A DNA stretch of 20,140 nt from a virus. A program made the position numbers and the translations under genes. Positions 2,215-18,324 of this stretch are shown here, one piece after another; position 1 is the stretch's first letter; every line of letters starts with the position of its first letter. The notes under the pieces were generated by a model that worked only from the letters and a program-made list of their open reading frames with translations, was not told the origin of the DNA and searched no databases. The stretch spans positions 1-20,140 of the IMG/VR virus record IMGVR_UViG_3300023110_000217; one strand, given 5' to 3'.

Positions 2215-2222
2215 TATAAATA
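2215..2222 (-). promoter_or_regulatory. Late-promoter-like TATTTATA element before the PhyH-type gene
   Basis: Coding strand TATTTATA inside the longer ATATATTTATATAC, 20 nt before the ATG. One of seven upstream copies of this octamer in the window. Confidence 0.55.
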
Positions 2223-2226
2223 TATA

Positions 2227-2583
2227 CTATTTGTGAAACTGTAATAAATTTGGTAAGTAAAGACCTAAATTTTTTATATCATCCGAAGCTAATCTTATTG
2301 CAACTCGATTTGATTCTTTGACCTCATTAAAATTACCTCGTATTCTCCATCTTACTTTAGCACCTACATAAAATGGATTAGAAAGTAATTGAGAATACTC
2401 TTTTGATGTTATTTCAAAAATGGGAGCAGATGTATCGTTGGTGCTTCTAATAAAATATCGATGTACATAACCTCTTAAATAATCTGACTCTACTAATTTA
2501 GGTACATATGCCCGAACTTTATTCGGTCTATAACCTCTAGGGTTTCCGTTAAGTTGACTATATTTTTTATTTAAATCTTCCAT
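2227..2583 (-). CDS. 118-aa conserved phage protein of the tail operon
   Basis: The start ATG (2583-2581) overlaps the hub gene stop as TAATG, so translation is coupled. The protein is basic, with an extended N-terminus (YSQLNGNPRGYRPNKVRAYVP) and a compact core starting at YVHRYFIRSTND, then IFEITSKEYSQL and VGAKVRWRIRG. Short proteins with a 'RYF..R.....IFEI....Y..L' core sit next to baseplate genes in many T4-like marine phages as far as I recall, but I know of no assigned function. Position as last gene of the tape-measure/baseplate operon suggests a baseplate part or assembly factor; that is inference. Confidence 0.75.
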   Translation of the reverse strand: MEDLNKKYSQLNGNPRGYRPNKVRAYVPKLVESDYLRGYVHRYFIRSTNDTSAPIFEITSKEYSQLLSNPFYVGAKVRWRIRGNFNEVKESNRVAIRLASDDIKNLGLYLPNLLQFHK

Positions 2584-5279
2584 TAGATGTTTCGTAATTT
2601 AGATTTTACCGAAGTAATCCATTGTTCGCCTACTTGATGATTGATTTCTGTAATTTGGAATATTTTATTATTAAATTTATATGGTAAATCAGCTACTCTA
2701 AATATATCACCAACTTTTAATCCACTTATACCATGAATTTGAAACTCAAATCCAATAGAAGTTAAGGGCGGATTGATTAAATTATCTTTTCCGTTTGATT
2801 TTTGTATTTCATTCAATTCATATTTCTTTAAAAGAGATGGGTCTTCCCATACACCAACGTAAAGTATTTGTTCAACATTTGCATTATTTGATGGGTCTAA
2901 ATCATATGAAATCCAACCTCCGATACTTTGTTTTGTAATATCATATGGTTTATTTCTATCATTTTCTCTTGGAAATACACCTGCTTTTTCAATAAAATAC
3001 TTATAATTAGTTTTTCTAGCTTCAGTAGCTTCTGCAGATTCATTATTTTTTATTTCTTTGGCAAGCTCAACTCCTTTTTCTAATGCATTTGATAATGAAG
3101 TACCTATATCATTTAAAGTTGCTCTACTCCAAAATTTTCTTTTTGATTTTGTTTCTGCAGATTTTTGTTTAAATTCTTTTTCTCTAATTTCGTTAAGTTC
3201 TTCTTCTTGGTCTGCAATAGCATCACTAAGTTTTTTAATTTTATTTGCAACAGGATCTTCAAATTTAGAAAATAAACCAGTTTCAAGATTTACTTGTTTA
3301 GATTCTGAAGATGTGAATCCTGCGGTATTTGAATCAACGGTTTCCCCATCATCACTTGGAAGTGATGACCCTCTCTGTGCCATAATTTGATTCATCAACC
3401 CACCAGGAATATCAATATCTAAATTAACATTTAAAAATGGTGATTTTATTCCTTGAGTATAAAATTCCGTTTTTATTACTTCTGGTATTCCTTGTTCGTT
3501 GGGTGTAACAGTTTCAGCAGTTACTCCTAGATAATTCGCATCAATCACTTTTAAACAACTATTACCAGTACCAGGTTGTCCGGTTTCTACTATCTGAAAA
3601 TCCCAATAGAAGTTAGCAGCAGATGACATTCCGTTTAAAAGTTCCATTAAAGCTTCATGAGCATATAATCCTGGCGACTGAATTACTTGTAAGAAAAAAT
3701 CAAAATTAATATATAAGTTTTTTAGCATTCCATGTTCGTGTGCTTTTGGTAAAGGTGGATTTATAGTTGAATCCCAACTATAATCTAATACAAGACCATC
3801 TACTGTTGCTGGAAATGCATATCTAGTTTTTTCATTAGTGGTATCTGAACTATTTGCTAATCCATCTGGTTTAGGATGACCATTTACAATACCACTAGGA
3901 CCAAAATCTGGTGCTTCAAGTGGTTCAATTGAACCACTTGGAAAATCCGCAGCCCGTAGAGCATCTATTAATTTAAAATCAGGTAACTGTGTGTTTGGTA
4001 TATATAGTTTACTTTTATCAACTGAGAACATATGTTTAAATGCTCTACAAACAGTATCCTCTATATGAATATCCTCTAACCGAACTCCTTTTAGTTTTTT
4101 ACCCGTACCATCTTGTAATACATATTCTGGACAACCGGTACTAGGTTGATTCTCTCCATACGCATCGGTTGCAAATATTTTATAAGCCAATTCAAATCTA
4201 ATAAATCTATCAGAAGACATTAATGGCACATCTTCGGGTACTCTTAGGTCACTACCATCAGCACTCCGAATTTTGTCATCTTTAGCTTCTTCAACTAAAT
4301 CTTCTCTAATTTGGTTATCCATGTTAATAAAGTTTGCAGGGTCATACCAAACTCTACCCGATGAGTCTGTTAGTTCATCAAATAATACTAATTTTTTTAT
4401 CGGACCTATCTGTTTATTTAAAGGTAGCTCATTATACATTTGCATAAACAAAAATTTACCAACATCACCCATTTCCTTATCACTCATTTCATCAAGCTCA
4501 CCTTGAGTAAACTTAATACCACTTTTTACTGCAGTTCGTGATAATATTTGTCCTTTTTGTGCTCTAAGATATGCGGGTAGTTCTCCAGGTGATGTTAATT
4601 CTACTTCAATATCGTATGCCTCACCGTCTGCGTATTTCATACCACCACCAGTAACTACTGCCAGTAATGCATCATAAGTTCCGTTAGATGCTGCTCTTTT
4701 ATCTTTAAGAATTCCTAGATTGTTATAGTAAATTAAATCACAGTCTGTAATACCATTACTAGTTCCAGCTCTTTGTTGAAGTGATTGTGGAACATTCCAT
4801 CCCCATTCTAATAAAACATAAGCCCCAGGTTCTAAGAAATGAGCAGATACTGAATCAGCTTGTGAAACTGTGTAAGTTCGAATGGTGAATTTAGCTTTTC
4901 GTGTTAAACCTTCAGTACCATTTTCAATTGTAAAAGATTCTACGGTAGGCGAAGGTCTCAATCCTCTCTTTTCTCTACCAACATAGTCAGTATCACTATC
5001 ATCAATTCCAGCATAGACAGGAGAAAAATCTGTTGCTGCTAAACCTACAATACCAGCATGAGAAAGATTACCATATCTTCTACCAAAGGTTTCTTTGGCA
5101 CTAAGAGAATCAATAACTAATCCTCTACCACCACCATTAGCAATTGCACCACTACCATTTAGAGTAACCAAACGAAACCAAGGCATCAACCCACTTAAAG
5201 CATAATTTGAATTTGCCTTAGTAAGAATTGCCTCAGCTATCTCAGGTTGTATGTTTGATAAATTTGGAAACCCACTCAT
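2583..5279 (-). CDS. Baseplate hub protein (gp27/VgrG-like position), enlarged
   Basis: 898 aa, far longer than T4 gp27 (391 aa). The N-terminal part has the pattern of phage hub proteins: SFTIENGTEGLTRKAKF at 115-131 followed by FLEPGAYVLLEWGW at 148-161. The C-terminal end (about 847-898) has the typical hub barrel sequence SGLKVGDIFRVADLP...FQITEINHQV...W.T. Between them are long insertions, including a low-complexity Ser/Asp region (about 636-662), a coiled coil with heptad-like charges (about 676-712) and a second helical segment (720-756). The protein should sit at the tail tip joining tube to wedges. It starts 10 nt after the LysM-like gene, has no Shine-Dalgarno sequence, and overlaps the next gene by one base. 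I see no lysozyme motif. The hub call rests on the two end patterns and on gene order. Confidence 0.7.
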   Translation of the reverse strand: MSGFPNLSNIQPEIAEAILTKANSNYALSGLMPWFRLVTLNGSGAIANGGGRGLVIDSLSAKETFGRRYGNLSHAGIVGLAATDFSPVYAGIDDSDTDYVGREKRGLRPSPTVESFTIENGTEGLTRKAKFTIRTYTVSQADSVSAHFLEPGAYVLLEWGWNVPQSLQQRAGTSNGITDCDLIYYNNLGILKDKRAASNGTYDALLAVVTGGGMKYADGEAYDIEVELTSPGELPAYLRAQKGQILSRTAVKSGIKFTQGELDEMSDKEMGDVGKFLFMQMYNELPLNKQIGPIKKLVLFDELTDSSGRVWYDPANFINMDNQIREDLVEEAKDDKIRSADGSDLRVPEDVPLMSSDRFIRFELAYKIFATDAYGENQPSTGCPEYVLQDGTGKKLKGVRLEDIHIEDTVCRAFKHMFSVDKSKLYIPNTQLPDFKLIDALRAADFPSGSIEPLEAPDFGPSGIVNGHPKPDGLANSSDTTNEKTRYAFPATVDGLVLDYSWDSTINPPLPKAHEHGMLKNLYINFDFFLQVIQSPGLYAHEALMELLNGMSSAANFYWDFQIVETGQPGTGNSCLKVIDANYLGVTAETVTPNEQGIPEVIKTEFYTQGIKSPFLNVNLDIDIPGGLMNQIMAQRGSSLPSDDGETVDSNTAGFTSSESKQVNLETGLFSKFEDPVANKIKKLSDAIADQEEELNEIREKEFKQKSAETKSKRKFWSRATLNDIGTSLSNALEKGVELAKEIKNNESAEATEARKTNYKYFIEKAGVFPRENDRNKPYDITKQSIGGWISYDLDPSNNANVEQILYVGVWEDPSLLKKYELNEIQKSNGKDNLINPPLTSIGFEFQIHGISGLKVGDIFRVADLPYKFNNKIFQITEINHQVGEQWITSVKSKLRNI

Positions 5280-5289
5280 CGTAAACCTA

Positions 5290-5574
5290 TTAAATGTTAT
5301 TTAAAATTTCTCTAAAATTTTCAGGTACTCTTAGAGTTGTACCATCTGGTACTGCAAATGTTGCATCGTGAATGTTATTAGCAGTTGCAATAATCCACCA
5401 TAAAGATGAATCCCCATACATATCATATGCTATAGTATCTAGTCTATCACCTGTTTGGGTAACAATATATATATCTTTATCTGATTTTGGTATATTTTTA
5501 TATATCCTTGATTGATATACTCGTCTACCATCTTTCAATTTTTTTATACTATTTCTATTGTATCTACTTGCCAT
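5290..5574 (-). CDS. LysM-like baseplate/tail protein (gpX / gp53 type)
   Basis: 94 aa. After a basic N-terminus (about 1-32) comes one LysM-like module at about 35-85: DIYIVTQTGDRLDTIAYDMYGDSSLWWIIATANN, ending in VPDGTTLRVP. This is the layout of P2 gpX-type tail proteins and of the LysM part of T4 gp53-type wedge proteins: a small domain at the tube-baseplate junction. The position between a large baseplate protein and the hub gene agrees. It starts 5 nt after the previous stop. The LysM fold here is used for virion assembly rather than cell-wall binding, judging by family knowledge. Which of the two named families it belongs to cannot be settled by eye. Confidence 0.85.
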   Translation of the reverse strand: MASRYNRNSIKKLKDGRRVYQSRIYKNIPKSDKDIYIVTQTGDRLDTIAYDMYGDSSLWWIIATANNIHDATFAVPDGTTLRVPENFREILNNI

Positions 5575-5579
5575 AATTT

Positions 5580-7967
5580 TTAATTAGGTTTTGTTAATCC
5601 AAATAAAGTATCGGATTTTTGAATATTTTGAGCATTAATAGTATTGTATCTATTAGGTGTATCATCTATTATGGTTGGTTCTTCACTTTCCCAAAGAAAA
5701 TTTACATTACCATTTACATCAATTTCCCAATAGGTTTGCATTCTAGTATTTGTACCTTGAATCGTTCCATCTTGGTAAACATAAATTGGATTAATAAGTT
5801 TTACATTGAGTTGTTCTGCTGCTTCATTTGGTAAATCTTTTAAACTAACAGAATTAGTTTTAACATCAGCAGGTACACTAACTCTTAAATTTTCAAATGA
5901 CCAAGCTTGTTGATTTGTCCAATTATTTTTTGTTTCTAATAATTTTACAGAATCTAAAGGAGATTCTCCTTCTAATCTATCAGCAAGTGCAGATTGATTT
6001 TTTATTAAATCATCTGTTCCACTATCCGCTTCAATTGGTGTTGAAATTTTAGCAGTTCCTTTTGGAATTGCAGAATTAAGTTTATTGGACTTTTTGTTAG
6101 GTATATTTTCACCAGTTGGTGATGATGATGTATCAACAATACCACGACTTGTAACTGTTACTGGTACTCTATTACTAGTATTTAAAAACCCTTCATCTCC
6201 ATCTGTTTCTGACATTCCAAAGATGCCGTTACCCACTTCAACACTAGCTATACCAGTTCTATTTGATGCAGAGAATCCATTTGAATTACTATCTTCTTTA
6301 ATTTTTTCAACTGCAGCTTTAGATTTTTTATATCCATATAGTGAACTCAATACTGAAGTATCTTCGATAAACTTGATAGTAACCGATACTTCAATATATT
6401 TTGGTAAAAATCCTAAAGTACCATCAGTTTCCCATGTAGAGTCATCGGGTATGGTATAAGTTAAACCTTCTATAAATCCAGTTTTATCAAAATAAATATC
6501 ACCCAATCTAAACTGAATGATTGGTGGATTTACTAAATTATTTTTATTTATTTTTGGATATGCCATTTTAGTTAAAGATTCTATCTTTTCCCAATTTGTA
6601 GAAAGTTCAACTGGAGAACTACAATATATCTTTAACGTAAAAGAAGTATTTCTTTCAATTTGACTATAGGTGTAATATGGAAATGGATTACCCACCATTT
6701 TATTGGCACTCCAAGATGGAGATACTGATTCGTTTAGACCTGTAATAATTGCTCTAAATGGTGTTTTCTTTTCACCATATTTTCCAATATAAAATGGTAT
6801 TAAATCTTCACCAACTTTATTTTCACCTTTTTTATAAACACCATAATCATCAACCGTATCATAATCTGATGATTTGAGTGTATTAATCTTATCACCTTTA
6901 CCAAGACCATATCTATCTTGAAGTGTACCTTTAGTAACTTCTGTCTTTTTTCTACCTGGTGCAAATTTGTTTATCCAAAAACCAGAACGAGTACCATCTG
7001 AACTTTTATTTTCAAAAGCATACTCGGTTTTACCAAATCTACCCTCAGGAGTTCCAAATTTAGCACTACCTGGTCTTGTTACACCATATATAGGAGAAAC
7101 TAATGATAAATCTAATTTAGTTCCCTCTAAATCTTTTGCTACACCTTCAGTACTTGGTAATACTTTAGATTTATTTACATCAGTATATGTACGAAGATTT
7201 GTAGTAGTTGCAACTTGAGGTTCTATATCATTTGAACCTGCTGCTTGTCCTTCACCAAAAAGTGCACCCCTTAGTTTATCTTTTGCCAACCCAATTCCTT
7301 TACCTAACGCTTGTTTTCCTAAAGTTTTTGGATTACCACCACCAGTTGATTGTAAAAACTTACCAACATCAGTTCCATTTTTTGAAATTATATCTTTGGT
7401 AATTGGTATATTAGATGGTACTTCATCAAAAGATTTTGGTACTTTTGATGGTGGAGATGGGACATCTATACCTGGGAATGGATTACTTTTTGGTTTGTCT
7501 AAATTTTGTATCTGTATGTTTTTATTATCTAATATTCTTGAAGGGGTTTGTGTTTCAGGTATACCAATAGTAGAATTTACAAAATCTCTTGCTTGATTTA
7601 TTTTACCACCAATTAACCCACCTCCAGCTTGAGAACCACCTTCAACAGTTCCACTTTTCATATCTTCTAGAAGTGGAGTACTTCTTTGAGTAATACGAAT
7701 TGCTTCATTACCATAAATGAGAGGATTATTAACATCTACGAGAGATTTAACACGAATACCAGTAGTTTCTTGTTCTAAAAGTGTTTCTTTATCGGATTTC
7801 AAAGATGAATAATCAGTTCCATATTTAAAAGATTCTTTGTTTCTATAAAGTTCGCGTAAAGTGGATTCATTGGGAGAATTTAAATCACCACTAGTAGGAA
7901 GGGTTTGATTCAATCCTTTTGACTGAAATTCATTACTTTCAAATAGGTCCATTATTGTTCTTGCCAT
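5580..7967 (-). CDS. Large baseplate / tube-junction protein
   Basis: 795 aa in three parts. Residues 1-280 are low-complexity, rich in Gly, Pro, Ser and Lys, and look disordered. Residues about 385-545 form the conserved core: DLIPFYIGKYG, TPFRAIITGLNESVSPSWS, GNPFPYYTYSQIERNTSFTLKIY and LGDIYFDKTGFIEGLTYTIP. This core resembles a domain seen in marine phage baseplate proteins encoded next to LysM genes. The tail end (about 550-795) is again Ser/Asn/Thr-rich, with a small folded part near 740-775 (INPIYVYQDGTIQG, MQTYWEIDVNG). It starts 1 nt after the tape measure stop, so the two are coupled. Position between tape measure and LysM gene points to the tail tip. No enzymatic motif is visible. 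Confidence 0.65.
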   Translation of the reverse strand: MARTIMDLFESNEFQSKGLNQTLPTSGDLNSPNESTLRELYRNKESFKYGTDYSSLKSDKETLLEQETTGIRVKSLVDVNNPLIYGNEAIRITQRSTPLLEDMKSGTVEGGSQAGGGLIGGKINQARDFVNSTIGIPETQTPSRILDNKNIQIQNLDKPKSNPFPGIDVPSPPSKVPKSFDEVPSNIPITKDIISKNGTDVGKFLQSTGGGNPKTLGKQALGKGIGLAKDKLRGALFGEGQAAGSNDIEPQVATTTNLRTYTDVNKSKVLPSTEGVAKDLEGTKLDLSLVSPIYGVTRPGSAKFGTPEGRFGKTEYAFENKSSDGTRSGFWINKFAPGRKKTEVTKGTLQDRYGLGKGDKINTLKSSDYDTVDDYGVYKKGENKVGEDLIPFYIGKYGEKKTPFRAIITGLNESVSPSWSANKMVGNPFPYYTYSQIERNTSFTLKIYCSSPVELSTNWEKIESLTKMAYPKINKNNLVNPPIIQFRLGDIYFDKTGFIEGLTYTIPDDSTWETDGTLGFLPKYIEVSVTIKFIEDTSVLSSLYGYKKSKAAVEKIKEDSNSNGFSASNRTGIASVEVGNGIFGMSETDGDEGFLNTSNRVPVTVTSRGIVDTSSSPTGENIPNKKSNKLNSAIPKGTAKISTPIEADSGTDDLIKNQSALADRLEGESPLDSVKLLETKNNWTNQQAWSFENLRVSVPADVKTNSVSLKDLPNEAAEQLNVKLINPIYVYQDGTIQGTNTRMQTYWEIDVNGNVNFLWESEEPTIIDDTPNRYNTINAQNIQKSDTLFGLTKPN

Positions 7968-7968
7968 T

Positions 7969-10900
7969 TTACTTATTCCCCGCTAATATATTGTTTTCCA
8001 ATGAACGACCTGTTGCTCTTTCTAATCCTTGATTAACTTGTCTACCATCTAAATTAACAATCATACCTTGTTTTAGTGCAGTAGCAACATTACGAATTTC
8101 TGTAAGTACATCTTTTTCAAAAGTAGAAACCGATTCAGATTCTAAAGCAGTAGTTTCTTCTGATTTACTTTCACCACCTGCAAATCCAAATACTTCAGCT
8201 ACCATTGCAATTCCTGCAGATGCAGCTGCAATACCTAATAAAGCTGGTAAAGCATATAATCCTGCTGCTCCTAAGAACATAAGTGAAGCAGCTAATCCCA
8301 TAAATGCAAGGGATAATAAACCAATAGTTGCAACTTGTCCTAAAGTAATACTTTCCATAAAGTTTGATAGTTTTGGTAAGAAATTACCTAAACTATTTGC
8401 AGCCAATTCTATTCCTGCAGATGCAGCTGTAATACCTAATAAAGCTGGTAAGGCAAATAATCCTGCTGCTCCTAAGTATATAAGTGAAGCAGCTAATCCC
8501 ACAAATGCAAGAGATAGTAAACCAATAGTTGCAACTTGTCCTAAACTGATACTTTCCATGAAGTTTGATAGTTTTGGTAAGAATGAACCTAAACTATTTG
8601 CAGCAAGTTCTATTCCTTTACCAAACATCATAGCACCAGCTCCAATAAGAGTAAATGCAGAAGCTAATCCAATTGCCATTCCAACAAAAGCAAGTAACCC
8701 AAGAGCACCAACTCCTGAAGCCATTAAACCTCCTAATGCGGTTAATGCAGGAATTAAAGCAAATATACCAAAAGCTGCAATTGGTGCAGCTACGCCTATC
8801 ATTAACATTCCAATTGAACCTGGTATCATAAGAGTAAATGCCGATGCAGCTAAAAGAAGTGCTGCCGAACCTACTACGGTTGGTGCCATCGCCATTAATC
8901 CAGCTGCTAATCCAATCAACCCAGCTCCAGCAGTTACACCAAGTAAAGCTACACCCCCCATTCCAACTATTCCTGGTATCATCAAACTAAATCCTAATCC
9001 AGCAAGTATTAAAGAAGTAGAACCAACTACCGTTGGTGCCATGGCTAGTAAACCAGGAGCTAATCCAAGTAATCCTTTACCTGCTGCTGCTCCGAGTAGA
9101 GCAACACCACCCATACCAATGATACCAGCAGTCATTAAACTAAATCCTAAACCAGCAACTGCAAGAGAAGTAGAACCACCTAGTGTTCCGTTCATTGCGG
9201 TTAAACCTGCAGCTAAACCAATTAAACCTTTACCAGCACTAATTCCAGTTTTACCAACTAAGAACATACCAGGAATACCTGGCAAGATTGCAATAAATCC
9301 TAATGCAGTAGGGATTAAGTTTAAAGCTCCTTTAAGAACTTGTCCAGTTCCCATTGCAGTTAATCCACTTGCAAGAGAAGTTAGTTTTCCTCCTATGGAT
9401 TCATCTGGTGCAACACCTTCTGCTTTATCACTTATTTTATCTGCTACTGAATCTAATTTATCATCAACTAAATCTTCTGCCTTATCCGAAACTTTATCTT
9501 TGGCTTTATCCGCAATACTATCTGTAGCCGATTCTGGTATTGCCATCATATCTTTGGCTTCTTTACCACCGAATCCTGCTAATATTTGTTTATCGGATAG
9601 TCCTTTTGATTTTGCAACTTCAAATGGGTTAAGTGCAGCACCAGCTTCAGCTCCACCGAATCCTAATTTTTGTGCTGCTATTTTAATAAGATTAACCAAG
9701 AATTTAGCAGATGAAACTACAGCATCTTTTAATCCTCCTGCTATCTTTCCAATACCAGTACCAATAAATTTAAATGCTTTACCAATACCACTAAATACCT
9801 TTCCTATACCCGGTGCAATCATTGCCATGTATCCTAAAGTTTGTAACATCTGACCACCAAAGCCAGTTGCAAAACCTGTTAAGGCTTCTTTCATTTGGTC
9901 AAACTGAGATACTTGAATAGAACCATCTTTATTCAACTTATCCATATTAGATAACATCTTCTGCAGTTCATCACTTTGTAATCCTAATGCTGCAGCGGCT
10001 GCTTTCTTTTGGAAGTAATCCATTCTATTGAATGCTTCAATACCACCAAGTTGTTGTAGTGCTGCTTGTAATGAACCTTTTATATCACCTTGATATGCAA
10101 GTTCTCTTGCTTTTTGGAAGTTAATGTTTTTACCTAATCTAGCACCCAATTCTAATTCTTGGTTGATTGAGTTTTCAAAATCAAGTAATTGGTCGGTTAA
10201 TTTGGTAGCAGTAGCTAAATTTGTACCTAATTGACCTGCCGCAACTGCTGCCTCTGCAATGTTCGTTCCACCTGCTTTACCATACTCAGCAAATGCTTGT
10301 GCAGAACCAGCTACATCAGCCATTACTTGAGATGGCATTAATCCATTTGCTTTTGCTAATTCTTTAGTAGATGCTGCAAGATTTTGAGCGGTTTCAATTG
10401 AACCACCATTTAATCTAGCGAAGTTACCTACGAGTTGTGCAGCCTCTTTACCACTAATACCCATATTCATGGCCATGAGGTTAGTGTTGAGTTGTGTATC
10501 AAACGAAGTATCTGCTAAACCACCAAATTCACTTGATAATCCTTTTGCAGATTCTAATGCAGTTGGAAATACAACTGATAACGCAGTAACTTGAGAAGTT
10601 GCACCAGTAAGACCTCCAACAAACCCACCCATTTCACGAGTAGTTTTACCAAGGGCACTAGCAACTTTACCAAGACCTACAAACATTAAACCAATAAGAA
10701 CATTTGGTTTTTTAAGAGCAGTAGTTATTTGGTTTCCAACTGCTTTCATTCGAGTTGACATTTTATCAGCTTCTGCAGTTAATTCCTTATATTGTTCAAC
10801 TTGTTCTGCAGATAAACCAGAAGTTACTTTTATTTGTTCATTAACCGATTGTGTTCCTTTTATATAATCTTGTAAGAAGTTATTTGCAGCTGCGTTTTGA

Positions 10901-11424
10901 GTTAAAAATTTTCCATGAGTTGCAGTTAAACTCTTCAGTTGGTTTTGAGCTGCTTCAATATTACCTAGAGCAATAGTTCTTTCTTCTTCATTAGATGCAT
11001 TCATTAACTCTGCTTGAGCATTTTGCATCATACTTGCACTTTCTTGGAAAGCGTTTACAAAAGATGCAGCAGCTTCTTTCTGATTTTCAGGAGTACCTAA
11101 ATCAATAGATGAAATTGCTTTGTAGTTCTTAGTTACAGTACTTATAGCGGAAGATAGTTGAGAAGTTGCTCTACTAGATAAAGATATATTATCTGCAGTA
11201 TCTTTAAAAGCTTCTGCTGCATCTTTGATACCTTCAACTTTTTCAAGATATGCTTCTACTTTTTGTTTCTTTTCTTTAAGATTTCTTATTTCTCGCTGAG
11301 AGTAGGTATGTTGTTTTTCCGCATTAGCTTTCTCCATCTTAGCTAGGTCTGCTTCAACCTTTTTAAGATTTTCTCTTGCCTTTGCTTCTGCATTAATAGC
11401 TTTTATTCTATCTTCAGCTGCCAT
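7969..11424 (-). CDS. Tail tape measure protein
   Basis: 1151 aa. Residues 1-75 are a strongly charged coiled coil (KARENLKKVEADLAKMEKAN...), followed by long helical segments. Hydrophobic Gly/Ala stretches appear near 240-280 and over most of 690-1085. This is the composition of tape measure proteins, which fill the tube and set tail length; it is about twice T4 gp29 (590 aa). Two tandem repeats lie in the hydrophobic part: a 51-aa unit three times (about 731-883) and a 67-aa unit twice (938-1071). A lysine/aspartate-rich linker (about 645-690) separates the helical half from the hydrophobic half. The C-terminus (NLDGRQVNQGLERATGRSLE) is soluble. The gene follows the 65-aa gene by 7 nt and is one base from the next gene. 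A 431-codon plus-strand frame opposite it is a composition shadow. Confidence 0.9.
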   Translation of the reverse strand: MAAEDRIKAINAEAKARENLKKVEADLAKMEKANAEKQHTYSQREIRNLKEKKQKVEAYLEKVEGIKDAAEAFKDTADNISLSSRATSQLSSAISTVTKNYKAISSIDLGTPENQKEAAASFVNAFQESASMMQNAQAELMNASNEEERTIALGNIEAAQNQLKSLTATHGKFLTQNAAANNFLQDYIKGTQSVNEQIKVTSGLSAEQVEQYKELTAEADKMSTRMKAVGNQITTALKKPNVLIGLMFVGLGKVASALGKTTREMGGFVGGLTGATSQVTALSVVFPTALESAKGLSSEFGGLADTSFDTQLNTNLMAMNMGISGKEAAQLVGNFARLNGGSIETAQNLAASTKELAKANGLMPSQVMADVAGSAQAFAEYGKAGGTNIAEAAVAAGQLGTNLATATKLTDQLLDFENSINQELELGARLGKNINFQKARELAYQGDIKGSLQAALQQLGGIEAFNRMDYFQKKAAAAALGLQSDELQKMLSNMDKLNKDGSIQVSQFDQMKEALTGFATGFGGQMLQTLGYMAMIAPGIGKVFSGIGKAFKFIGTGIGKIAGGLKDAVVSSAKFLVNLIKIAAQKLGFGGAEAGAALNPFEVAKSKGLSDKQILAGFGGKEAKDMMAIPESATDSIADKAKDKVSDKAEDLVDDKLDSVADKISDKAEGVAPDESIGGKLTSLASGLTAMGTGQVLKGALNLIPTALGFIAILPGIPGMFLVGKTGISAGKGLIGLAAGLTAMNGTLGGSTSLAVAGLGFSLMTAGIIGMGGVALLGAAAGKGLLGLAPGLLAMAPTVVGSTSLILAGLGFSLMIPGIVGMGGVALLGVTAGAGLIGLAAGLMAMAPTVVGSAALLLAASAFTLMIPGSIGMLMIGVAAPIAAFGIFALIPALTALGGLMASGVGALGLLAFVGMAIGLASAFTLIGAGAMMFGKGIELAANSLGSFLPKLSNFMESISLGQVATIGLLSLAFVGLAASLIYLGAAGLFALPALLGITAASAGIELAANSLGNFLPKLSNFMESITLGQVATIGLLSLAFMGLAASLMFLGAAGLYALPALLGIAAASAGIAMVAEVFGFAGGESKSEETTALESESVSTFEKDVLTEIRNVATALKQGMIVNLDGRQVNQGLERATGRSLENNILAGNK
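8212..8613 (-). repeat. Tandem 201-bp repeat within the tape measure gene (2 copies)
   Basis: Two in-frame copies of 67 codons, 8413-8613 and 8212-8412, encode nearly identical segments starting IELAANSLG and ending ASAG. DNA identity is also high (for example the shared stretch starting ttcctgcagatgcagctg). The high identity points to a recent duplication. Confidence 0.9.
8776..9234 (-). repeat. Tandem 153-bp repeat within the tape measure gene (3 copies, third diverged)
   Basis: In-frame units of 51 codons begin at 9234 (GKGLIGLAAG), 9081 (GKGLLGLAPG) and 8928 (GAGLIGLAAG). The first two share GMGGVALLG and LGFSLM; the third has drifted. All are Gly/Ala/Leu-rich and membrane-like. Confidence 0.85.
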
Positions 11425-11431
11425 CTATACC

Positions 11432-11629: not shown

Positions 11630-11656
11630 TATATCTCCTTAACGGTTTTGTACTAC

Positions 11657-11664
11657 TATAAATA
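11657..11664 (-). promoter_or_regulatory. Late-promoter-like TATTTATA element before the tape measure operon
   Basis: Coding strand AACTATATTTATAGTAGTA, identical over 19 nt (11651-11669) to the element before the tail tube gene. It lies just after the upstream terminator and 28 nt before the 65-aa gene. Confidence 0.6.
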
Positions 11665-11670
11665 TAGTTC

Positions 11671-11701
11671 AAAAAAAAAGTGAGGAAATTATTTCCTCAC
11701 T
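11671..11701 (-). terminator. Rho-independent terminator overlapping the end of the chaperone-like gene
   Basis: Arms AGTGAGGAAA and TTTCCTCACT (11679-11688 and 11692-11701) form a 10-bp stem, followed on the minus strand by nine T residues (11679-11671, the first shared with the stem). The 3-nt loop is exactly the stop codon TAA of the 86-aa frame, so the stem contains its last codons. Confidence 0.85.
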
Positions 11702-11949
11702 CTTACCCCCGGTCCTTTAGATTGTCTATTGGCCTTTTTGTATTCGTCTTGTTCTTTTTTCTTTGCTTCTACCAACTTCTTAAAGTAAAACCTTCTCCAA
11801 TGAATTGGCATGGTATAGACTTCAGACCAAGTAAATCCATTACCATAATTAACCATTTCCCAAATTTGGTTATGAAGTTGGATTGAGTAATCACTCGGTA
11901 GGGTAAAAAAACCCAACCCCAAAGGGTATATCAAGTGCCTCCGTTTCAC
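11689..11949 (-). CDS. Tail assembly chaperone-like protein, possibly made by frameshift from the upstream gene
   Basis: The frame overlaps the end of the gp26-like gene by 59 nt. The only upstream start is GTG at 11949-11947, with no Shine-Dalgarno sequence; the next ATG (codon 32) would remove the N-terminal third. The core sequence FTWSEVYTMPIHWRRFYFKKLVEAKKKEQDEY resembles the second domain of phage tail assembly chaperones, which often has 'Y.MP...R..F...L'. In many phages that domain is made only as a frameshift extension of the first chaperone gene. Here a U7 run at the overlap would allow a +1 or -2 shift (see findings); the fusion would be about 322 aa. The basic C-terminus (KGPGVRVRK) ends in the loop of a terminator. 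The role in tape measure handling is inferred. Confidence 0.65.
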   Translation of the reverse strand: MKRRHLIYPLGLGFFTLPSDYSIQLHNQIWEMVNYGNGFTWSEVYTMPIHWRRFYFKKLVEAKKKEQDEYKKANRQSKGPGVRVRK

Positions 11950-12658
11950 CCGTTATATCTGATGTAAATTCGTAAGTTAAATCTAAATCAGGTGAGATTT
12001 CACGAACATAATTTCGTAGTGCACGAGAATCTCTAGCTAGTAAATTATTTTTAACCCAATTATTAATAAAACCTCGTTCAGTATTTCCATCAACTTCTTG
12101 AATCATATATCTTAAACGAGTTGAAAGGTCTTGAGATACACTTTCTTGTCCTTTAGTTAAACGATTTAATGCCTGAACTTCTGCATTGATATCTTTTTCA
12201 TCTTTATGAGTTAATAATTTGAATTTGATTGTTTTTTTAGCAAGTGGTAATTCAAATTCGTATGAGTTTGATGGTGAAAGTAATTCTTCATCAACTTCCT
12301 TGATTTGAATTTTAGATAAATCAATTGCAACTTTCTGTTGTTCACCAGAAAATGGGTCTGTTACTTCTACATTGTATTCTGGTCCGTAACCTAATACACG
12401 AGTTGCTAAAAGAATAGCGTTTTTATCACCTACAAATATATCTCCTATATCTAATCCTTCTTCTACAACAACAGATTCGAATAATTTATCTAATACCACC
12501 CCCTTTCTTATCAAATTTTGGGAAGCAAGTATATCCTCTTCTTTTGCAGTCATATACTTGATTTCAACCGTACCCTTTGATAATGGGTGGCCTTGTGGAT
12601 AAAGTTTACCTTTTGACGGTAACTCTATAATTTCAGTTGGAAAATCATGTTTTGCCAT
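11891..12658 (-). CDS. T4 gp26-like baseplate/tail assembly protein
   Basis: 255 aa (T4 gp26 is 208). The N-terminal signature is ELPSKGKLYPQGHPLSKGTVEIKYMTAKEEDIL at about 12-44, then LIRKGVVLDKLFESVV and IFVGDKNAILLATRVLGYG, the typical order of the T4_baseplate (gp26) family found in many marine myoviruses. The middle is acidic and beta-rich (NVEVTDPFSGEQQKVAIDLS), the C-terminal half helical. Located between tube and tape measure genes, the place where tail assembly chaperones are encoded in many phages, and overlapping a chaperone-like frame, it probably acts in tail initiation rather than only as a hub subunit. It has its own TATTTATA element 25 nt upstream and no Shine-Dalgarno sequence. 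The in-frame stop is TGA, 12 nt after the U7 run. Confidence 0.85.
   Translation of the reverse strand: MAKHDFPTEIIELPSKGKLYPQGHPLSKGTVEIKYMTAKEEDILASQNLIRKGVVLDKLFESVVVEEGLDIGDIFVGDKNAILLATRVLGYGPEYNVEVTDPFSGEQQKVAIDLSKIQIKEVDEELLSPSNSYEFELPLAKKTIKFKLLTHKDEKDINAEVQALNRLTKGQESVSQDLSTRLRYMIQEVDGNTERGFINNWVKNNLLARDSRALRNYVREISPDLDLTYEFTSDITGETEALDIPFGVGFFYPTE
11905..11911 (-). other. U7 slip site, candidate programmed frameshift
   Basis: Seven consecutive T on the coding strand, read in the gp26-like frame as GGG TTT TTT TAC. A tRNA-Phe on the second TTT can move +1 (or -2) and still pair perfectly, leading into the downstream 86-aa frame at ACC. The in-frame stop follows 12 nt later. Confidence 0.4.
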
Positions 12659-12682
12659 AAACTTATATTTTTATTGTTTGTA

Positions 12683-12690
12683 TATAAATA
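12683..12690 (-). promoter_or_regulatory. Late-promoter-like TATTTATA element before the gp26-like gene
   Basis: Coding strand ATATATTTATATAC, 25 nt before the ATG and just after the tube terminator, so the gp26-like/86-aa pair forms its own unit. Confidence 0.6.
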
Positions 12691-12711
12691 TATAATTTAA
12701 AAAAAAGTTGA

Positions 12712-12744
12712 AAAAAAAAGAGTTCTCACTAAGAGAACTCTTTT
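12712..12744 (-). terminator. Rho-independent terminator after the tail tube gene
   Basis: Arms AAAAGAGTTCTC and GAGAACTCTTTT (12716-12727 and 12733-12744) form a 12-bp stem with a 5-nt loop. On the minus strand a run of nine T follows the core stem. It begins 24 nt past the tube stop codon. Confidence 0.9.
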
Positions 12745-12768
12745 GTAAAGTTGTAGTATATTGGGATT

Positions 12769-13257
12769 TTAGAATTCTAAAATTGCATAATCATAAGCAA
12801 GAGTAACTGTAATTTCAGCAGGGTCATTAGAAGACCAATCTAAGTTACCAAAGTTAGCTTGAGTGATAAATGCACCTTTTAAAGTCCATTGTTCAATTTT
12901 ATCACCAACTGGTCCTAACATATAGCATTGGATATCTTTCTTATAGAAATCTGCATATCCATCTCTACCTGTTAAAGATTCATGAGAGGTTCTTACCCAC
13001 TCCATTATTGCTTGTGCTCCACTTGGAACGATTGGGTCAAATAGAGTGATTTCTACATCCTGCCATTCACCTTTACCTTTCAATTGTCTTTTAACATTGA
13101 TGTGGTCAAGTGTTACCTTTTCGAACTGAATCGTAGGTCTGTTAGCAACTCTAATAAGATATGAAGGGATACCATCAATTTCCATGATGAATCTGTTCTT
13201 CATCTTTGGTTCAAAGTTGGTATAGAACATATCGTTAAATTCTAATACTTCTGCCAT
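12769..13257 (-). CDS. 19: Tail tube protein (T4 gp19-like)
   Basis: 162 aa, against 163 in T4 gp19. The N-terminal sequence EFNDMFYTNFEPKMKNRFIMEIDGIPSYLIR is the family hallmark, followed by the strand VTLDHINVKRQLKGKGEWQDVEITLFDP and the C-terminal LKGAFITQANFGNLDWSSNDPAEITVTLAYDYA. The product forms stacked hexameric rings inside the sheath and the channel for DNA. It has a clear AGGAG ribosome site, a TATTTATA element 24 nt upstream and a strong terminator after it, so it can be expressed as a one-gene unit at the high level a tube protein needs. It follows the sheath gene, as in most contractile phages. Confidence 0.95.
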   Translation of the reverse strand: MAEVLEFNDMFYTNFEPKMKNRFIMEIDGIPSYLIRVANRPTIQFEKVTLDHINVKRQLKGKGEWQDVEITLFDPIVPSGAQAIMEWVRTSHESLTGRDGYADFYKKDIQCYMLGPVGDKIEQWTLKGAFITQANFGNLDWSSNDPAEITVTLAYDYAILEF

Positions 13258-13280
13258 TTTTTATTCTCCTATTATACTAC

Positions 13281-13288
13281 TATAAATA
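13281..13288 (-). promoter_or_regulatory. Late-promoter-like TATTTATA element before the tail tube gene
   Basis: Coding strand AACTATATTTATAGTAGTA, sharing 19 identical nt with the element at 11651-11669. It lies 24 nt before the ATG; AGGAG lies between them. Confidence 0.6.
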
Positions 13289-13311
13289 TAGTTTCCTTTA
13301 TTTTTTAATTA

Positions 13312-15612
13312 TTATGCCGTGAACGAAGCTCCAGTCGGTAGAATGTTGAAATCAAGTACAATGAATTCAGCAGTTTTAGTTGGTTGTAGATAAATCTGAC
13401 CAGCTAAGATGTTTCTATCGATTACATCTGGAGTATTATTTGTTTCATCCATTACAACTCTAAACGCATATAAACCTTGTCTTTGTTGGATTCCCTCTAA
13501 ATATGGGTTTACTGTGTTTAAGAACTTAGAACGAGTTGTAGCAGTGTTTTGTTCGAATACTAAGTATCTTGAAGTTGAAGCGATATACTTCTTAACTTTG
13601 ATAAGTAATCTACGAACATTAATTCTATCAAGAGCTGAAGCTCTATCTTGAAGGGTTTTCTGACCAAATGCAACAATACCTTCTCCTGGGAATTGTGCGA
13701 TTGGGTTGATTTTTCCTTCATATAATGTATCTCTTTCAGAGTGTGTTAATCTGTTAAGAACTGAAACAGCACCTACGATACCACCACGATTAAGACCTGC
13801 AGGAGCGAACCACTCAGCAGCAACTGCATCGTTAGCAGCATAAATTCCTGGCATCAATACAGATGGTGGAACTGAAGTTAGTTTATTAGTTCTTGAGTCG
13901 ATTGTTTTAACCCATGGGTAGTAAGTACCAACATAGTTAGAATCTACTGCCTGTCCTTGGTCTACTGCATCTGTAATTGTTGCATCAGCACCAACTACAT
14001 CACCAATGAAAAATGCGTCTTCTCTAGCTTCACACATATCAACGATTTTATCGAATACATACGAGTGATGTTGTCTTACAATACCAGGTGCAGATACTAA
14101 GTTAATATCGAAATCATCTGGGTTAGATACTGAGTTAATTGCTTTTACATAAGAAACTGAACCGCTAGATGTTGAACCAGCTAAATCAAATCCTTGTGAG
14201 TTACCTGAAGAAATATCTGTTCCTTTATCACTAGATACTGTTGGAGATACACCATCGAATCCGCCTTGGAATCCTACAATGAGTTGTCTCTTATTAATAT
14301 CTGCAGCTGATGAACCAGTTAATTCATAAGATAATTGAGAATCAAATGCAAATACTACATTTGAACCAGTTCCAGCGTTTGTTGGGATTGGTTTTAAGTA
14401 ATGTGCATTATCAATTTTAGTTACAGATGTTTCTAAATCAATACCACTATAAGATGTACCATTAGATGCAGTGTTTGAATCTGAATCTGTTTGGAAAACT
14501 ACAGCAGGTACTTCTGAACCACTTGCAACTAAGATTGGGTTTTGATATTCTGCATGTCCAAATGGTCCCGCGATGATAGGGAATGAACCTTCGTTAGAAC
14601 ATTCTACTCTAATATAAGATGAACGGTTTCGGTAATCACCATTTAGAGTTTGTTTTCCGTTTGCATCAATAGTAATATTGATATCACCAATTACTTTCTT
14701 AATGTAATTTGGAGATGCAGGGTCTAAGTTAACATTATTAAATGTTTCTAAAATTGAAGGTCTTTTATCTGTATCAGAATATCCACGAACCACGATAGAG
14801 AATGTTGCATAATCAGTAGCATTAGATTCTCCAGCAGCTTTTACATTAAAGATACCAATCTTATATTCTTTATTATAGTTAGAACCATCACCTAAAGTGT
14901 GGAAACGGAATAGGTCATGTCTTTCACCTGATATCAACTGTGATTTAATCCAAGGAGTTGTTGCGTGTTGAATATCAAATCCAAAATCTTGGTCTGGTAA
15001 AGTTTCTAAAATTACTTCACCACCAGCAGTTAATGTTGATGCTAAATCAGTTGCTGCTTTTTCGAAGTAAACATATGAGTAAGCTTTTTTAGAACCACGA
15101 GCAGATTCACCGAATACATCAGATAAATCATTTGCTGCAGATGGTAAAATAGATGCTGACACTGCAGTTCCTAACGCTGAACCGCTAATTGAGAACGCAG
15201 AAGCACTTGGTTGAGCATCAATAGTAGTAGATGGTAAACCTACCGACTCATCTCCATTATGAGTTACGAAAAGAGAACCTACTACTTTAATAGCACCAGA
15301 ACCACTTGCCTGAACTTTGATTGCTACAGGGTCAACATGAGTATAACCACCGGTGTGTCCAACACGAACGATAGTTACAGTTCCAGCTTCTCTTAAATAA
15401 TTTTGTACGGTATATCCTGTATAGTATGTTCCATCAGGTGTACCGAAGATTTTTTCAAATTCTGATTGGGTGTTTACAACGGTTGGTACGAACGCAGGTC
15501 CTTTATGGAAAGGTCCAATTACTGCTGCTCCGATTTCTCCAATCCCTTGTGCTAAGAAAGAAAGGTCATTCTCTCTCGTAAATACACCAGGTGATACAAT
15601 TTTTTCTGCCAT
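13312..15612 (-). CDS. 18: Tail sheath protein (T4 gp18-like)
   Basis: 766 aa (T4 gp18 is 659). The N-terminus MAEKIVSPGVFTRENDLSFLAQGIGEIGAAVIGPFHKGPA is the classic gp18 handle sequence, with VPTVVNTQSEFEKIFG next. The C-terminal domain (about 540-766) has the sheath signatures VLMPGIYAANDAVAAEWFAPAGLNRGG, INPIAQFPGEGIVAFGQKTLQ, RRLLIKVKKYI and the end EFIVLDFNILPTGASF. Residues about 110-520 are Ser/Thr/Gly-rich, form the surface domains and account for the extra length. Sheath subunits contract to drive the tube into the cell. The gene has AAGGAG before the ATG, a TATTTATA element 43 nt upstream and a short hairpin between them. I see no terminator behind it, so readthrough into the tube gene is likely. 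Confidence 0.97.
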   Translation of the reverse strand: MAEKIVSPGVFTRENDLSFLAQGIGEIGAAVIGPFHKGPAFVPTVVNTQSEFEKIFGTPDGTYYTGYTVQNYLREAGTVTIVRVGHTGGYTHVDPVAIKVQASGSGAIKVVGSLFVTHNGDESVGLPSTTIDAQPSASAFSISGSALGTAVSASILPSAANDLSDVFGESARGSKKAYSYVYFEKAATDLASTLTAGGEVILETLPDQDFGFDIQHATTPWIKSQLISGERHDLFRFHTLGDGSNYNKEYKIGIFNVKAAGESNATDYATFSIVVRGYSDTDKRPSILETFNNVNLDPASPNYIKKVIGDINITIDANGKQTLNGDYRNRSSYIRVECSNEGSFPIIAGPFGHAEYQNPILVASGSEVPAVVFQTDSDSNTASNGTSYSGIDLETSVTKIDNAHYLKPIPTNAGTGSNVVFAFDSQLSYELTGSSAADINKRQLIVGFQGGFDGVSPTVSSDKGTDISSGNSQGFDLAGSTSSGSVSYVKAINSVSNPDDFDINLVSAPGIVRQHHSYVFDKIVDMCEAREDAFFIGDVVGADATITDAVDQGQAVDSNYVGTYYPWVKTIDSRTNKLTSVPPSVLMPGIYAANDAVAAEWFAPAGLNRGGIVGAVSVLNRLTHSERDTLYEGKINPIAQFPGEGIVAFGQKTLQDRASALDRINVRRLLIKVKKYIASTSRYLVFEQNTATTRSKFLNTVNPYLEGIQQRQGLYAFRVVMDETNNTPDVIDRNILAGQIYLQPTKTAEFIVLDFNILPTGASFTA

Positions 15613-15638
15613 GTTATTTTACTCCTTGTTAATAAAAT

Positions 15639-15654
15639 TGTGTATGAATACACA
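15639..15654 (-). promoter_or_regulatory. Leader hairpin of the sheath gene
   Basis: Inverted repeat TGTGTAT-GA-ATACACA, 7 bp with a 2-nt loop, placed between the TATTTATA element and the AAGGAG ribosome site. It could be a 5' mRNA stabiliser or a protein-binding operator; no T-run follows, so it is not a terminator. Short, so possibly chance. Confidence 0.35.
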
Positions 15655-15662
15655 TATAAATA
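15655..15662 (-). promoter_or_regulatory. Late-promoter-like TATTTATA element before the sheath gene
   Basis: Coding strand TTATATTTATATGTGTA, 43 nt before the ATG, the longest spacing of the seven; the leader hairpin accounts for the extra length. Confidence 0.55.
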
Positions 15663-15692
15663 TAAGATAACTTTTCCAAAAGTATATTTTTC

Positions 15693-15977
15693 TTACTCTG
15701 AAACTTCTTCTTTAGAGATTGGAGTGAATGTATTTGTTGTTGGGTCGTAATTACCATCACCATATTTTTCATTCAATCCCTTAAAAAGGTCTTGTTCTTG
15801 TTGTTGTAACCCTTTGTGTTTTTCGATTAGTTGTTCTTCTAAATCATCTAGTTCATCTAATCTTCTGTTTCTCTCAATAGATAATTGTCCTAATTGAGTA
15901 AAAACATTTGCAACTTCTTGACGAAGTTGGTTAATCGATTGTACTTCTTCTTCTGTAAATTGGATTGTTTCTGCCAT
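15693..15977 (-). CDS. 94-aa coiled-coil protein between Hint protein and sheath
   Basis: MAETIQFTEEEVQSINQLRQEVANVF begins a long acidic helix; heptad-like hydrophobics continue through QLSIERNRRLDELDDLEEQLIEKHKGLQQQEQDLF (about 30-67), then a short non-helical tail (KYGDGNYDPTTNTFTPI). This is very probably a coiled coil over residues 8-70. Similar short 'FTEEE...LRQE' coiled-coil proteins occur in marine phage structural regions as far as I recall, without known function. It has its own TATTTATA element and no Shine-Dalgarno sequence, lies in the late block, and could be a small structural or chaperone protein. Confidence 0.75.
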   Translation of the reverse strand: MAETIQFTEEEVQSINQLRQEVANVFTQLGQLSIERNRRLDELDDLEEQLIEKHKGLQQQEQDLFKGLNEKYGDGNYDPTTNTFTPISKEEVSE

Positions 15978-16011
15978 TTTAATATAACTTTTTAATTATT
16001 TAATTTATATA

Positions 16012-16019
16012 TATAAATA
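16012..16019 (-). promoter_or_regulatory. Late-promoter-like TATTTATA element before the coiled-coil gene
   Basis: Coding strand ATATATTTATATATATA, 35 nt before the ATG, in a very AT-rich gap where chance matches are more likely than at the other sites. Confidence 0.5.
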
Positions 16020-16043
16020 TATTGTTTTTTCTCAAACGATAAA

Positions 16044-17312
16044 TTATCTCGTAAATGTTAATGTACTTGACCAAGTTCCCTTCAATCCAGCTTCAATTGC
16101 ACGAACTCTAAAATACCAAGTTCCTGCTGCTAAAATTGTGTTAACTTCAACTTCAGTTGTACTCCATTCATCTGCAGTATTTTCAATCGAACTAAAGTTT
16201 GATGCTGCAGATATTTGATATTCATATGCAGTTACACCAGTTGTAGTAGTATCAGATGGTGCTGTCCATGTTACCAATGGTGATGAATATGTTACAGAGG
16301 TAGGTGCACCAGGACCTGAGAAATCTGAATGCGAGTTACCTCCTTTATTGTGAGTAATATATCCATTAACCATATAAGTATCTTCTTCTTCAACATCAAT
16401 TGAAATAATTTCAGTTGTTTTTTCTACTACTTCAATAGAAGTAATATCAACTTCAGTTCCATCACCTTTGATTAGTTTATCACCAACTACTAAGTTGAAC
16501 ATTTCTTTGAATAAATAATCACCACCTACTGAATCTTTAACTAACATTGGGTGTTCTGATGTTGCAGTTACCTCACCATCGTTAATATCATAATATCTTG
16601 GTGAGAACGAATAAGTTAAATTTACAACTGTTACATCTTTTGCTGTTGTAGATAATTCAGATGATGACCAATCTAAGAAAGTTCCATCTGAATCAGTTCC
16701 TAAACCACCAATTGAGAATCCTTTTAATAAATCTCCTTCAGATAATTCACCAGCTTCAATTGTTGTTCCATCTGCAAGTGTTACAGGTGAATCAATCGTT
16801 AAACATAAAGCAGTTGAGTTACCATCATATGAATCTACCGAATAAACGGTTTTATCTCTATTTGTATTATAGTTTGTTGCATGGTCATTAAATCCATCAG
16901 CAAAAACTACTCTTAATGTATGAGTTTCAATTCCTTGTAATGTAGTTTGTGTTACAACATCAGTCATGTTACCAACTGCAAAAGTAGCAGTTGCTCCACT
17001 ATTTGTATCTAATGAAATTTTAGTACCAGTTGGAACTGACCAAGTAAAGTTATCTGACCGTGTTGAAATTTTAGAAAAGTCTGAACCTGCACCAGTAAAA
17101 CCAAGTGTGTAGGTTTCCGATGTATTTTCTACTGCATAAGTATAACCACTAATATCACCTACTGCATCTATATAAAAATCGCTACCAAGAGAAATATTAT
17201 CTCCAGATACAGGTGAACCTTTAATAGTTCCTAATGAAATGTCTGATACACCTTGTCCTGTAGCAGAACCAAGATTATTTAAACTTAGAGTGTCTCCTGA
17301 TGATACGGCCAT
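16044..17312 (-). CDS. Virion-type protein with embedded self-cleaving Hint domain and C-terminal FN3 domain
   Basis: 422 aa in three parts. Residues 1-169 are Ser/Thr/Gly-rich and beta-like, as in phage appendage or decoration proteins. Residues 170-322 form a compact Hint (intein/hedgehog) domain without homing endonuclease. Cys170 starts it (LCLTIDSPVTLADGTTIEAG), followed by ELSEGDLL, the block-B motif Thr251-Ser-Glu-His254 (TSEHPML), VVGDKLIKGDG at 275-285 and the terminal YMVNGYITHN with His321-Asn322. Residues 335-422 are a fibronectin type III domain (PTSVTYSSPLVTWTAPSD...YFRVRAIEAG). The residue after Asn322 is Lys323, not Cys/Ser/Thr, so normal splicing is not expected. Cleavage at one or both borders, as in bacterial intein-like domains, is. 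AGGAG precedes the ATG and a TATTTATA element lies 25 nt upstream. The gene sits between the glycosyltransferase and sheath genes. The role in the virion is inferred from context. Confidence 0.85.
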   Translation of the reverse strand: MAVSSGDTLSLNNLGSATGQGVSDISLGTIKGSPVSGDNISLGSDFYIDAVGDISGYTYAVENTSETYTLGFTGAGSDFSKISTRSDNFTWSVPTGTKISLDTNSGATATFAVGNMTDVVTQTTLQGIETHTLRVVFADGFNDHATNYNTNRDKTVYSVDSYDGNSTALCLTIDSPVTLADGTTIEAGELSEGDLLKGFSIGGLGTDSDGTFLDWSSSELSTTAKDVTVVNLTYSFSPRYYDINDGEVTATSEHPMLVKDSVGGDYLFKEMFNLVVGDKLIKGDGTEVDITSIEVVEKTTEIISIDVEEEDTYMVNGYITHNKGGNSHSDFSGPGAPTSVTYSSPLVTWTAPSDTTTTGVTAYEYQISAASNFSSIENTADEWSTTEVEVNTILAAGTWYFRVRAIEAGLKGTWSSTLTFTR

Positions 17313-17328
17313 TTATATTTTCTCCTAT

Positions 17329-18324
17329 CTAACTATTATAAATATCAAGGAACTCTCTTACCCATCGTTCTTTATCGGTAAAATTGTCCTTCATATATTG
17401 TTTTAGATGTAAAAACCACTTATTTTTTTCCTCATAAGGGGTTTCAATTAACTTATTATAAATATGATGAAATTCTTTTTTATTAGATGCTCTATAAGGA
17501 TATTCCAAATCTTTACACCAACTTCCATTTAATATTGGTAATTTACCCATATCTACTGATTGAAAGATTGAATAACCAAATGGCTCTGATGTAAAGGATG
17601 AATGTGATATACCCCAATCCATATTCCAAAACTTATCACTAAATTGAGAATCATAATGAAATATTCTAGATTTAGACATATCTAACTTTGCACCATTTTT
17701 CCAAATTGTATTAAATTCAAGTGAATTAGTAAAAACTAAACTTGGTAACCCATCTAAATAGTGTGGATTCTTTCTACCTTCACATCTTGCAGCAAATCCT
17801 AATTTATTTGACTTACTTAAAGGTTTATTGTGTTTAAATTCGTAAAAGTTGGTAATATTTGTATTTTCTATAAGAATTTCATATAACCCAACCCAAATTG
17901 AATGTTTTGCCCATTCGTTTATTTGTTTTTCCCAAGATGAATCTAAATAAGGATGCCAACCTAATGAAGCATCAGTTCCAACTTGTGATTTTAAAATATG
18001 GTCTACTGAATTATGTAAAATATTCGAGTAAATCTTGTGTTTATTTTCTTCCAATACTTTCATTGGAGTGTAATGACCATGTAAGATATGTATTCTTCTA
18101 CAATCTTTGATTATTTTTTCAAATTTGAGAATATCATCTCCGTGCCAATGTGATTCTATTGGAAATTGAAAATCTTCATGACCTTTGGGTTTATTTCTAT
18201 GTATGAGAAGAACGGGTTTAACTTTTAACTTTGATGCAATTTCTTCTAACCAAATATTAACCCAAGTATCAGTACCTGCATTTACCCAAGGCCCTCCACC
18301 TGTGGTATAATAAACATCATACAT
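17329..18324 (-). CDS. GT-B-type glycosyltransferase (family 4-like)
   Basis: 331 aa. The N-terminus has a Gly-rich loop (TTGGGPWVNAGTDTWVNIWLEEIASKL, about 7-33), as in the first Rossmann domain of GT-B enzymes. Near the C-terminus is the nucleotide-sugar motif of GT4-like enzymes, Glu247-Pro-Phe-Gly250 (SEPFGYSIFQSVDMGKLPIL), followed by a helical tail ending in a basic/aromatic helix (WVREFLDIYNS). No signal peptide or membrane helix is seen, so it acts in the cytoplasm. It starts 3 nt after the tail fibre stop, has no Shine-Dalgarno sequence, and is probably co-expressed with the fibre. Likely jobs are glycosylating a virion appendage or host surface sugar; donor and acceptor cannot be told. 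Sequence is divergent outside the two motifs. Confidence 0.7.
   Translation of the reverse strand: MYDVYYTTGGGPWVNAGTDTWVNIWLEEIASKLKVKPVLLIHRNKPKGHEDFQFPIESHWHGDDILKFEKIIKDCRRIHILHGHYTPMKVLEENKHKIYSNILHNSVDHILKSQVGTDASLGWHPYLDSSWEKQINEWAKHSIWVGLYEILIENTNITNFYEFKHNKPLSKSNKLGFAARCEGRKNPHYLDGLPSLVFTNSLEFNTIWKNGAKLDMSKSRIFHYDSQFSDKFWNMDWGISHSSFTSEPFGYSIFQSVDMGKLPILNGSWCKDLEYPYRASNKKEFHHIYNKLIETPYEEKNKWFLHLKQYMKDNFTDKERWVREFLDIYNS
17337..17344 (-). promoter_or_regulatory. Late-promoter-like TATTTATA element before the Hint-domain gene
   Basis: Coding strand GATATTTATAATAGTTAGAT, 25 nt before the ATG, overlapping the last codons of the glycosyltransferase gene. AGGAG follows directly. Confidence 0.55.

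Follow-up and report, generated by a model that had tools for sequence, protein, structure and literature searches.

A recurrent octamer, TATTTATA, stands just upstream of seven genes of a phage genome fragment, and we consider it very likely that these boxes are late promoters of the T4 type with a TT centre, read by a phage sigma factor of the gp55 kind. The consensus, TATATTTAT(A/T), has TT in place of the AA found at -10/-9 in T4, where the late promoter TATAAATA works with the sigma factor gp55, the coactivator gp33 and the clamp gp45. The window (the whole stretch of DNA analysed here) is a complete virus record of 20,140 bases; its genes are read on the minus strand, and its source is a T4-related contractile-tail phage. 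A preliminary description of this DNA had proposed a late-type element that defines transcription units and is probably read by a sigma factor of the phage, and that part of its reading is retained; its further proposal, that the element runs in the reverse sense to that of T4, is not.

The octamer occurs eight times in the window, each time on the minus (coding) strand, so that sense TATAAATA occurs nowhere in it. The seven positions described earlier (2215, 11657, 12683, 13281, 15655, 16012 and 17337, minus strand) were reproduced exactly, as were the nine-mer common to all seven boxes (ATATTTATA) and the 19-nt identity (AACTATATTTATAGTAGTA) between the copies at 11657 and 13281. Between the 3' end of each box and the ATG lie 19, 27, 24, 23, 42, 34 and 24 nt, in the same order. 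The eighth copy (17457..17464, minus strand) had gone unlisted; it lies inside the 331-aa gene at 17329-18324.

Conservation of the boxes (all on the minus strand) was assessed at orthologous starts, counting distinct upstream stretches only. The box at 13281..13288 precedes the tube gene (12769-13257), and TATTTAT is found at 56/56 orthologous starts; the box at 12683..12690 precedes a T4 baseplate gene (gp26-like, PF12322; hub) at 11891-12658, whose product matches PF12322 with an E-value of 1e-10, and recurs at 54 of 56 starts. All 38 orthologous starts of the 94-aa coiled-coil gene (15693-15977) have the box seen here at 16012..16019, at protein identities down to 26%, and the box heading the run of the 65-aa gene (11657..11664) is found at four out of four orthologous 65-aa starts. 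For the sheath gene (13312-15612; box at 15655..15662) the exact box is present at 16 of 37 starts, and the remaining orthologues mostly have TACTTATA, with one mismatch. The box of the PhyH gene (1416-2195; box at 2215..2222) is kept in only five of 15 orthologues. The box at 17337..17344, ahead of the Hint-domain gene (16044-17312), recurs at 29/32 starts, a count confounded by conserved codons: this box overlies the DIYN codons with which the 331-aa gene ends, and part of its conservation is therefore due to coding. The eighth copy, which in relatives keeps a constant distance of 120 nt to the 17337 copy, codes for a conserved (D/H)-I-Y; judging from these codons it is probably not a promoter, and it indicates that DIY-type codons alone can produce the octamer. 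The 422-aa protein encoded at 16044-17312 has a weak match (below the curated cut-off) to the pretoxin-HINT family (PF07591), and its gene lies within the phage structural cluster.

In 80 viral contigs with a tube gene, sense TATTTATA was found 10-60 nt before an ATG in 289 out of 378 cases, and sense TATAAATA in only 14 out of 67. The distance from box to ATG in relatives has a sharp peak at 15-40 nt. Matching of orthologous sites, mismatches being tolerated, gave a nearly invariant core, ATA(T/C)TTAT(A/T), in which each of the central Ts was T in 208 of 209 sites.

The boxes stand at the heads of gene runs. Behind the 11657 box, for example, follow the 65-aa gene, the tape measure gene (7969-11424) and genes for proteins of 795, 94, 898 and 118 aa, down to position 2227; the genes internal to this run have the box at none of 73 orthologous starts in relatives, and when the 331-aa gene is taken together with those for the tape measure and the 795-, 94-, 898- and 118-aa proteins, the count is 0/104. 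The absence of the box from closely packed genes, asserted earlier for the window, extends to four long relatives: only 4/355 starts with a gap of <15 nt have a box, versus 46/200 starts with a gap of >=40 nt (Fisher P 6e-18). Among starts with a gap of >=40 nt, 14 of 29 are boxed after a terminator versus 32 of 171 otherwise (P 0.001). Two terminators, the strongest in the window, have their ends ~12 and ~26 nt ahead of boxes: an intrinsic terminator with a 13-pair stem and a T run (11676..11704, minus strand) is just upstream of the 11657 box, and another with a 12-pair stem and a T run (12716..12744, minus strand) is just upstream of the 12683 box. A terminator-like stem is also seen at 1365-1385, before three small box-less genes (333-1314) that may belong to another expression class.

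In sets of 183 and 337 distinct sites, no strong column suggestive of a -35 element was seen ahead of the box; downstream, the sequence is A-rich, with a preference for purine/A at a distance of 11-13 nt from the first T of the box. This architecture is as expected of a T4-type late promoter, which has no -35 element and is AT-rich downstream (PMC2988020). Structural genes are among those boxed, and from this gene class late expression would be expected; against this, PhyH and several genes of unknown function are boxed as well.

The preliminary description had also allowed that the box acts in mRNA leaders. An element of this kind (a translation signal or an RNA-processing site, rather than a promoter) would be AU-rich and directly upstream of the start codon, as the box is. 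But we regard it as highly improbable: run-internal genes, which are equally in need of translation, lack the box, terminators often stand ahead of it, and it lies at distances from the ATG that vary by ~30 nt.

The box recurs in other phages. By sheath, the nearest named phages are Microcystis phage Mel-JY01 and Flavobacterium phage immuto. Motif discovery in long relatives, with upstream octamers ranked by enrichment against dinucleotide shuffles, placed TATTTATA first in the 123-kb contig G001 (22 genes versus 2.8 expected), and it is enriched in immuto (21 versus 3.2), in a second contig, G002 (10 versus 1.6), and in Mel-JY01 (12 versus 2.8); sense TATAAATA is near chance upstream in all four. 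In immuto, 12 of the 21 boxed starts fall inside a block at 117-160 kb (P 5e-5) that contains the terminase, portal, sheath, tube, hub and tape measure genes. A T4-type Yersinia phage has mostly the AA centre (eight starts, versus three with TT), and four phages of the far-T4 kind (LR756508, RM378, LIS04 and GXN1) have no enrichment of TATTTATA in ~30 kb around the sheath gene. In the open-access literature searched, we found no earlier paper that describes the box.

Other upstream motifs were seen in these genomes. Immuto (L089, L091-L093) has a second one, approximately CTATATTTAGGTATCAATAATTAA, before ~14-21 genes, which may be another promoter class. TTTTTCGTATATTTA is upstream of eight or nine genes of G002 (L104-L109), and CGTATATT is recurrent in immuto and Mel-JY01; these two may represent either a subtype of the box or yet another class. 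In Mel-JY01 (L090, L094-L096), AACAACCTAACA is upstream of ~7 genes.

The host of immuto invites another explanation, namely that the box is read by a host sigma factor. The Bacteroidota -7 element is TAnnTTTG, with an upstream TTTG, and TATATTTA resembles it, being one letter away; among the phages that have the box, one infects Flavobacterium. The upstream TTTG is not enriched, however (2.4% at 19-27 nt upstream of the box versus 3.7% in shuffles), and TATATTTG is found in only 45 of 3131 upstream stretches, compared with 373 for TATATTTA. As a cyanobacterial phage uses the same box, we judge a host-sigma promoter highly improbable.

The orientation proposed earlier is not needed to account for the box. 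TAT...ATA reads the same on both strands, which leaves TATTTATA and TATAAATA with a difference at the two central bases only, and everything that a flipped box could account for is covered by a change of the centre from AA to TT. Cryo-EM of the T4 complex (PMC7892883) shows three bases flipped by gp55, namely A(-12) against Y97, A(-9) against N13/H95 and A(-8) against T99, with the As at -12 and -8 inserted into deep pockets; both of these As are retained in the TATTTATA box. A T4 box used in reverse, with the sigma factor contacting the element flipped relative to T4, is hard to credit: TATTTATA is indeed the exact reverse complement of TATAAATA, but with self-complementary flanks the AA to TT centre is the sole difference, and the position of the box, a leader of normal length and the As at -12/-8 gripped by gp55 all fit the normal orientation. 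A flipped box would also require a larger change in the sigma factor, and no letter of the sequence separates the two readings.

The bare tally of the octamer in the window is weak evidence (eight versus 3.9 expected, matched in six out of 100 shuffles); the signal is carried by strand and position, and little by the raw count. The box is found 10-60 nt before 7/15 starts of the window; when the same stretches were dinucleotide-shuffled 5000 times, the mean was 0.28 and the maximum 3. Sense TATAAATA precedes none of the 15 starts. That the boxes are chance octamers in AT-rich gaps, as a raw tally of only twice the expectation might suggest, has next to no likelihood in view of the position and strand tests and the cross-phage conservation at orthologous starts. 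The box is a real feature, and it is the cross-phage conservation that decides this.

If the boxes are T4-type late promoters, a sigma factor of the gp55 kind would be expected to read them. The search for one found a candidate in relatives, while the window itself holds no sigma gene. Immuto gp118 (YP_010114565.1) has a weak match to the gp55 family phrog_234 (E 0.008; E 0.5 in another search). Its family, of 230-260 aa, also includes Mel-JY01 WWT39502.1 (37% identity to immuto gp118), the product of G001 4050-4817 (39% identity) and proteins from at least 80 further contigs. G001, immuto and Mel-JY01 each hold both the boxes and the candidate gene, and 79 of 80 loci with the candidate have at least one upstream TATTTATA, with 202 upstream sites in all versus 13 for TATAAATA. 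The phage of the window presumably has such a gene too, outside the fragment, the link being made through its relatives.

When the candidate profile was compared with T4 plus cyanophage gp55 (hhalign), the sigma-2 region was aligned with a probability of 87 and an E-value of 4e-6, a probability that falls to 6% if cyanophage gp55 is left out. Run against all ORFs, the gp55 profile puts the candidate gene in first place in both G001 and immuto, and in Mel-JY01 it did not find the homologue directly. No match was obtained by phmmer with T4 gp55 and gp45 against the ORFs of relatives, or in Pfam and PDB sequence searches with the candidate. For an AlphaFold model of the candidate, of middling confidence (pLDDT 70.6), the PDB matches are mostly sigma factors, with the sigma region 2 fold, and the best is T4 gp55 (7d7c_F; Z 10.9, rmsd 5.8, 115 residues aligned); helical models can reach a Z near 11 by chance, and the uniform list of sigma factors therefore outweighs the Z value. 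In predicted fold and by profile, the N-terminal half of the protein resembles T4 gp55, making the family a good candidate for the sigma factor, and it is this protein that would read the box.

The alignment of these faintly similar proteins allows the residues that contact the T4 box to be compared: Y97 is invariant in the candidate family; T99 is present in almost every near-clade member, with S at this place in Mel-JY01 and Q in immuto; H95 is replaced by F and N13 by G or T. The H95 to F change was considered as a mark of the TT centre and rejected, as cyanophage gp55, which has an AA box, also has F, and only N13 tracks the centre change. This is a correlation over few lineages, drawn from aligned sequences.

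The candidate adds ~100 C-terminal residues, predicted to be helical and HTH-like (model pLDDT 81.6); it was considered as a sigma region 4, but gave no clear structural match (best Z 4.9). After an acidic linker, 31/34 near-clade members end in NPY(I/L)DN(E/D)(Y/F)L, a tail reminiscent of the clamp-binding end of gp55 and, by this analogy, putatively clamp-binding. It is absent from the members in L184, L185, L190, Mel-JY01 and immuto, and the sub-clade of L184, L185 and L190 may have lost or replaced it. The NPYIDNEYL-type tail was also considered as a general clamp tag; at the end of PolB in relatives stands FF(T/S/N)F instead. The T4 clamp family phrog_223 had no match in twelve records, a result that is uninformative as the controls had no match either. 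In Mel-JY01, the gene of an unannotated 250-aa protein, WWT39363 (L094:25755-26507), has PolB on one side and a gp44-like clamp-loader gene on the other; by position only, this protein is probably a sliding clamp.

These observations are best explained by a mechanism in which the boxes act as the -10-like elements of T4-type late promoters and are melted by a phage-coded sigma factor of the gp55 kind, with the 230-260 aa family as candidate reader, on the host RNA polymerase. RNA would start at ~11-13 nt from the first T, downstream, giving leaders of ~10-40 nt; each box would open one unit of the structural gene cluster, and the terminators ahead of some boxes would separate the units. The exact start site, and any use of a sliding clamp, are what we infer.

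The box shares with the T4 late promoter the -10 octamer, the TAT/ATA flanks, the lack of a -35 element, the AT-rich downstream sequence and the location before structural genes; it differs in having TT rather than AA at the centre and in being extended to TATATTTAT(A/T). The candidate shares with T4 gp55 the predicted sigma-2 domain, but is longer, with the extra C-terminal helical domain. In cyanophages S-PM2 and Syn9, the late promoter NATAAATA (PMC2984593) has the same place and role, with an AA centre; cyanophage gp55 shares an AF(A/S)YF segment with the candidate, but keeps N13, which is G or T in the candidate family. In Aeromonas phage Aeh1, too, the T4 late box varies in a lineage-specific way, although there the change is at the upstream edge, (a/g)C at -13/-12 (PMC2988020), and here at the centre. 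Ma-LMM01 is also a Microcystis phage whose late promoters have an AT-rich -10 element, but these are bipartite and host-sigma-like, in a phage without gp55 (PMC5780444).

The box is thus a real feature that reaches well beyond the window, very likely a centre-changed late promoter of the T4 type, with a diverged gp55 as its probable partner. A tentative possibility, on which we would not insist, is that a whole branch of the T4 superfamily (Flavobacterium, Microcystis and many uncultured aquatic phages) switched the centre of its late promoter, AA becoming TT, along with its sigma factor, and that the C-terminal domain gained by the latter may replace gp33, so that one protein would combine promoter recognition with, in the near clade, a clamp tether. 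Such a co-change of sigma-2 and promoter is testable, as the box differs from that of T4 at two bases and the contacts of gp55 are known from cryo-EM. The box makes transcription units readable in a large, hardly studied group of aquatic phages, and their probable late sigma factor can be named, a protein family so far unannotated; the box would also explain why searches for the T4 box in such genomes find nothing.
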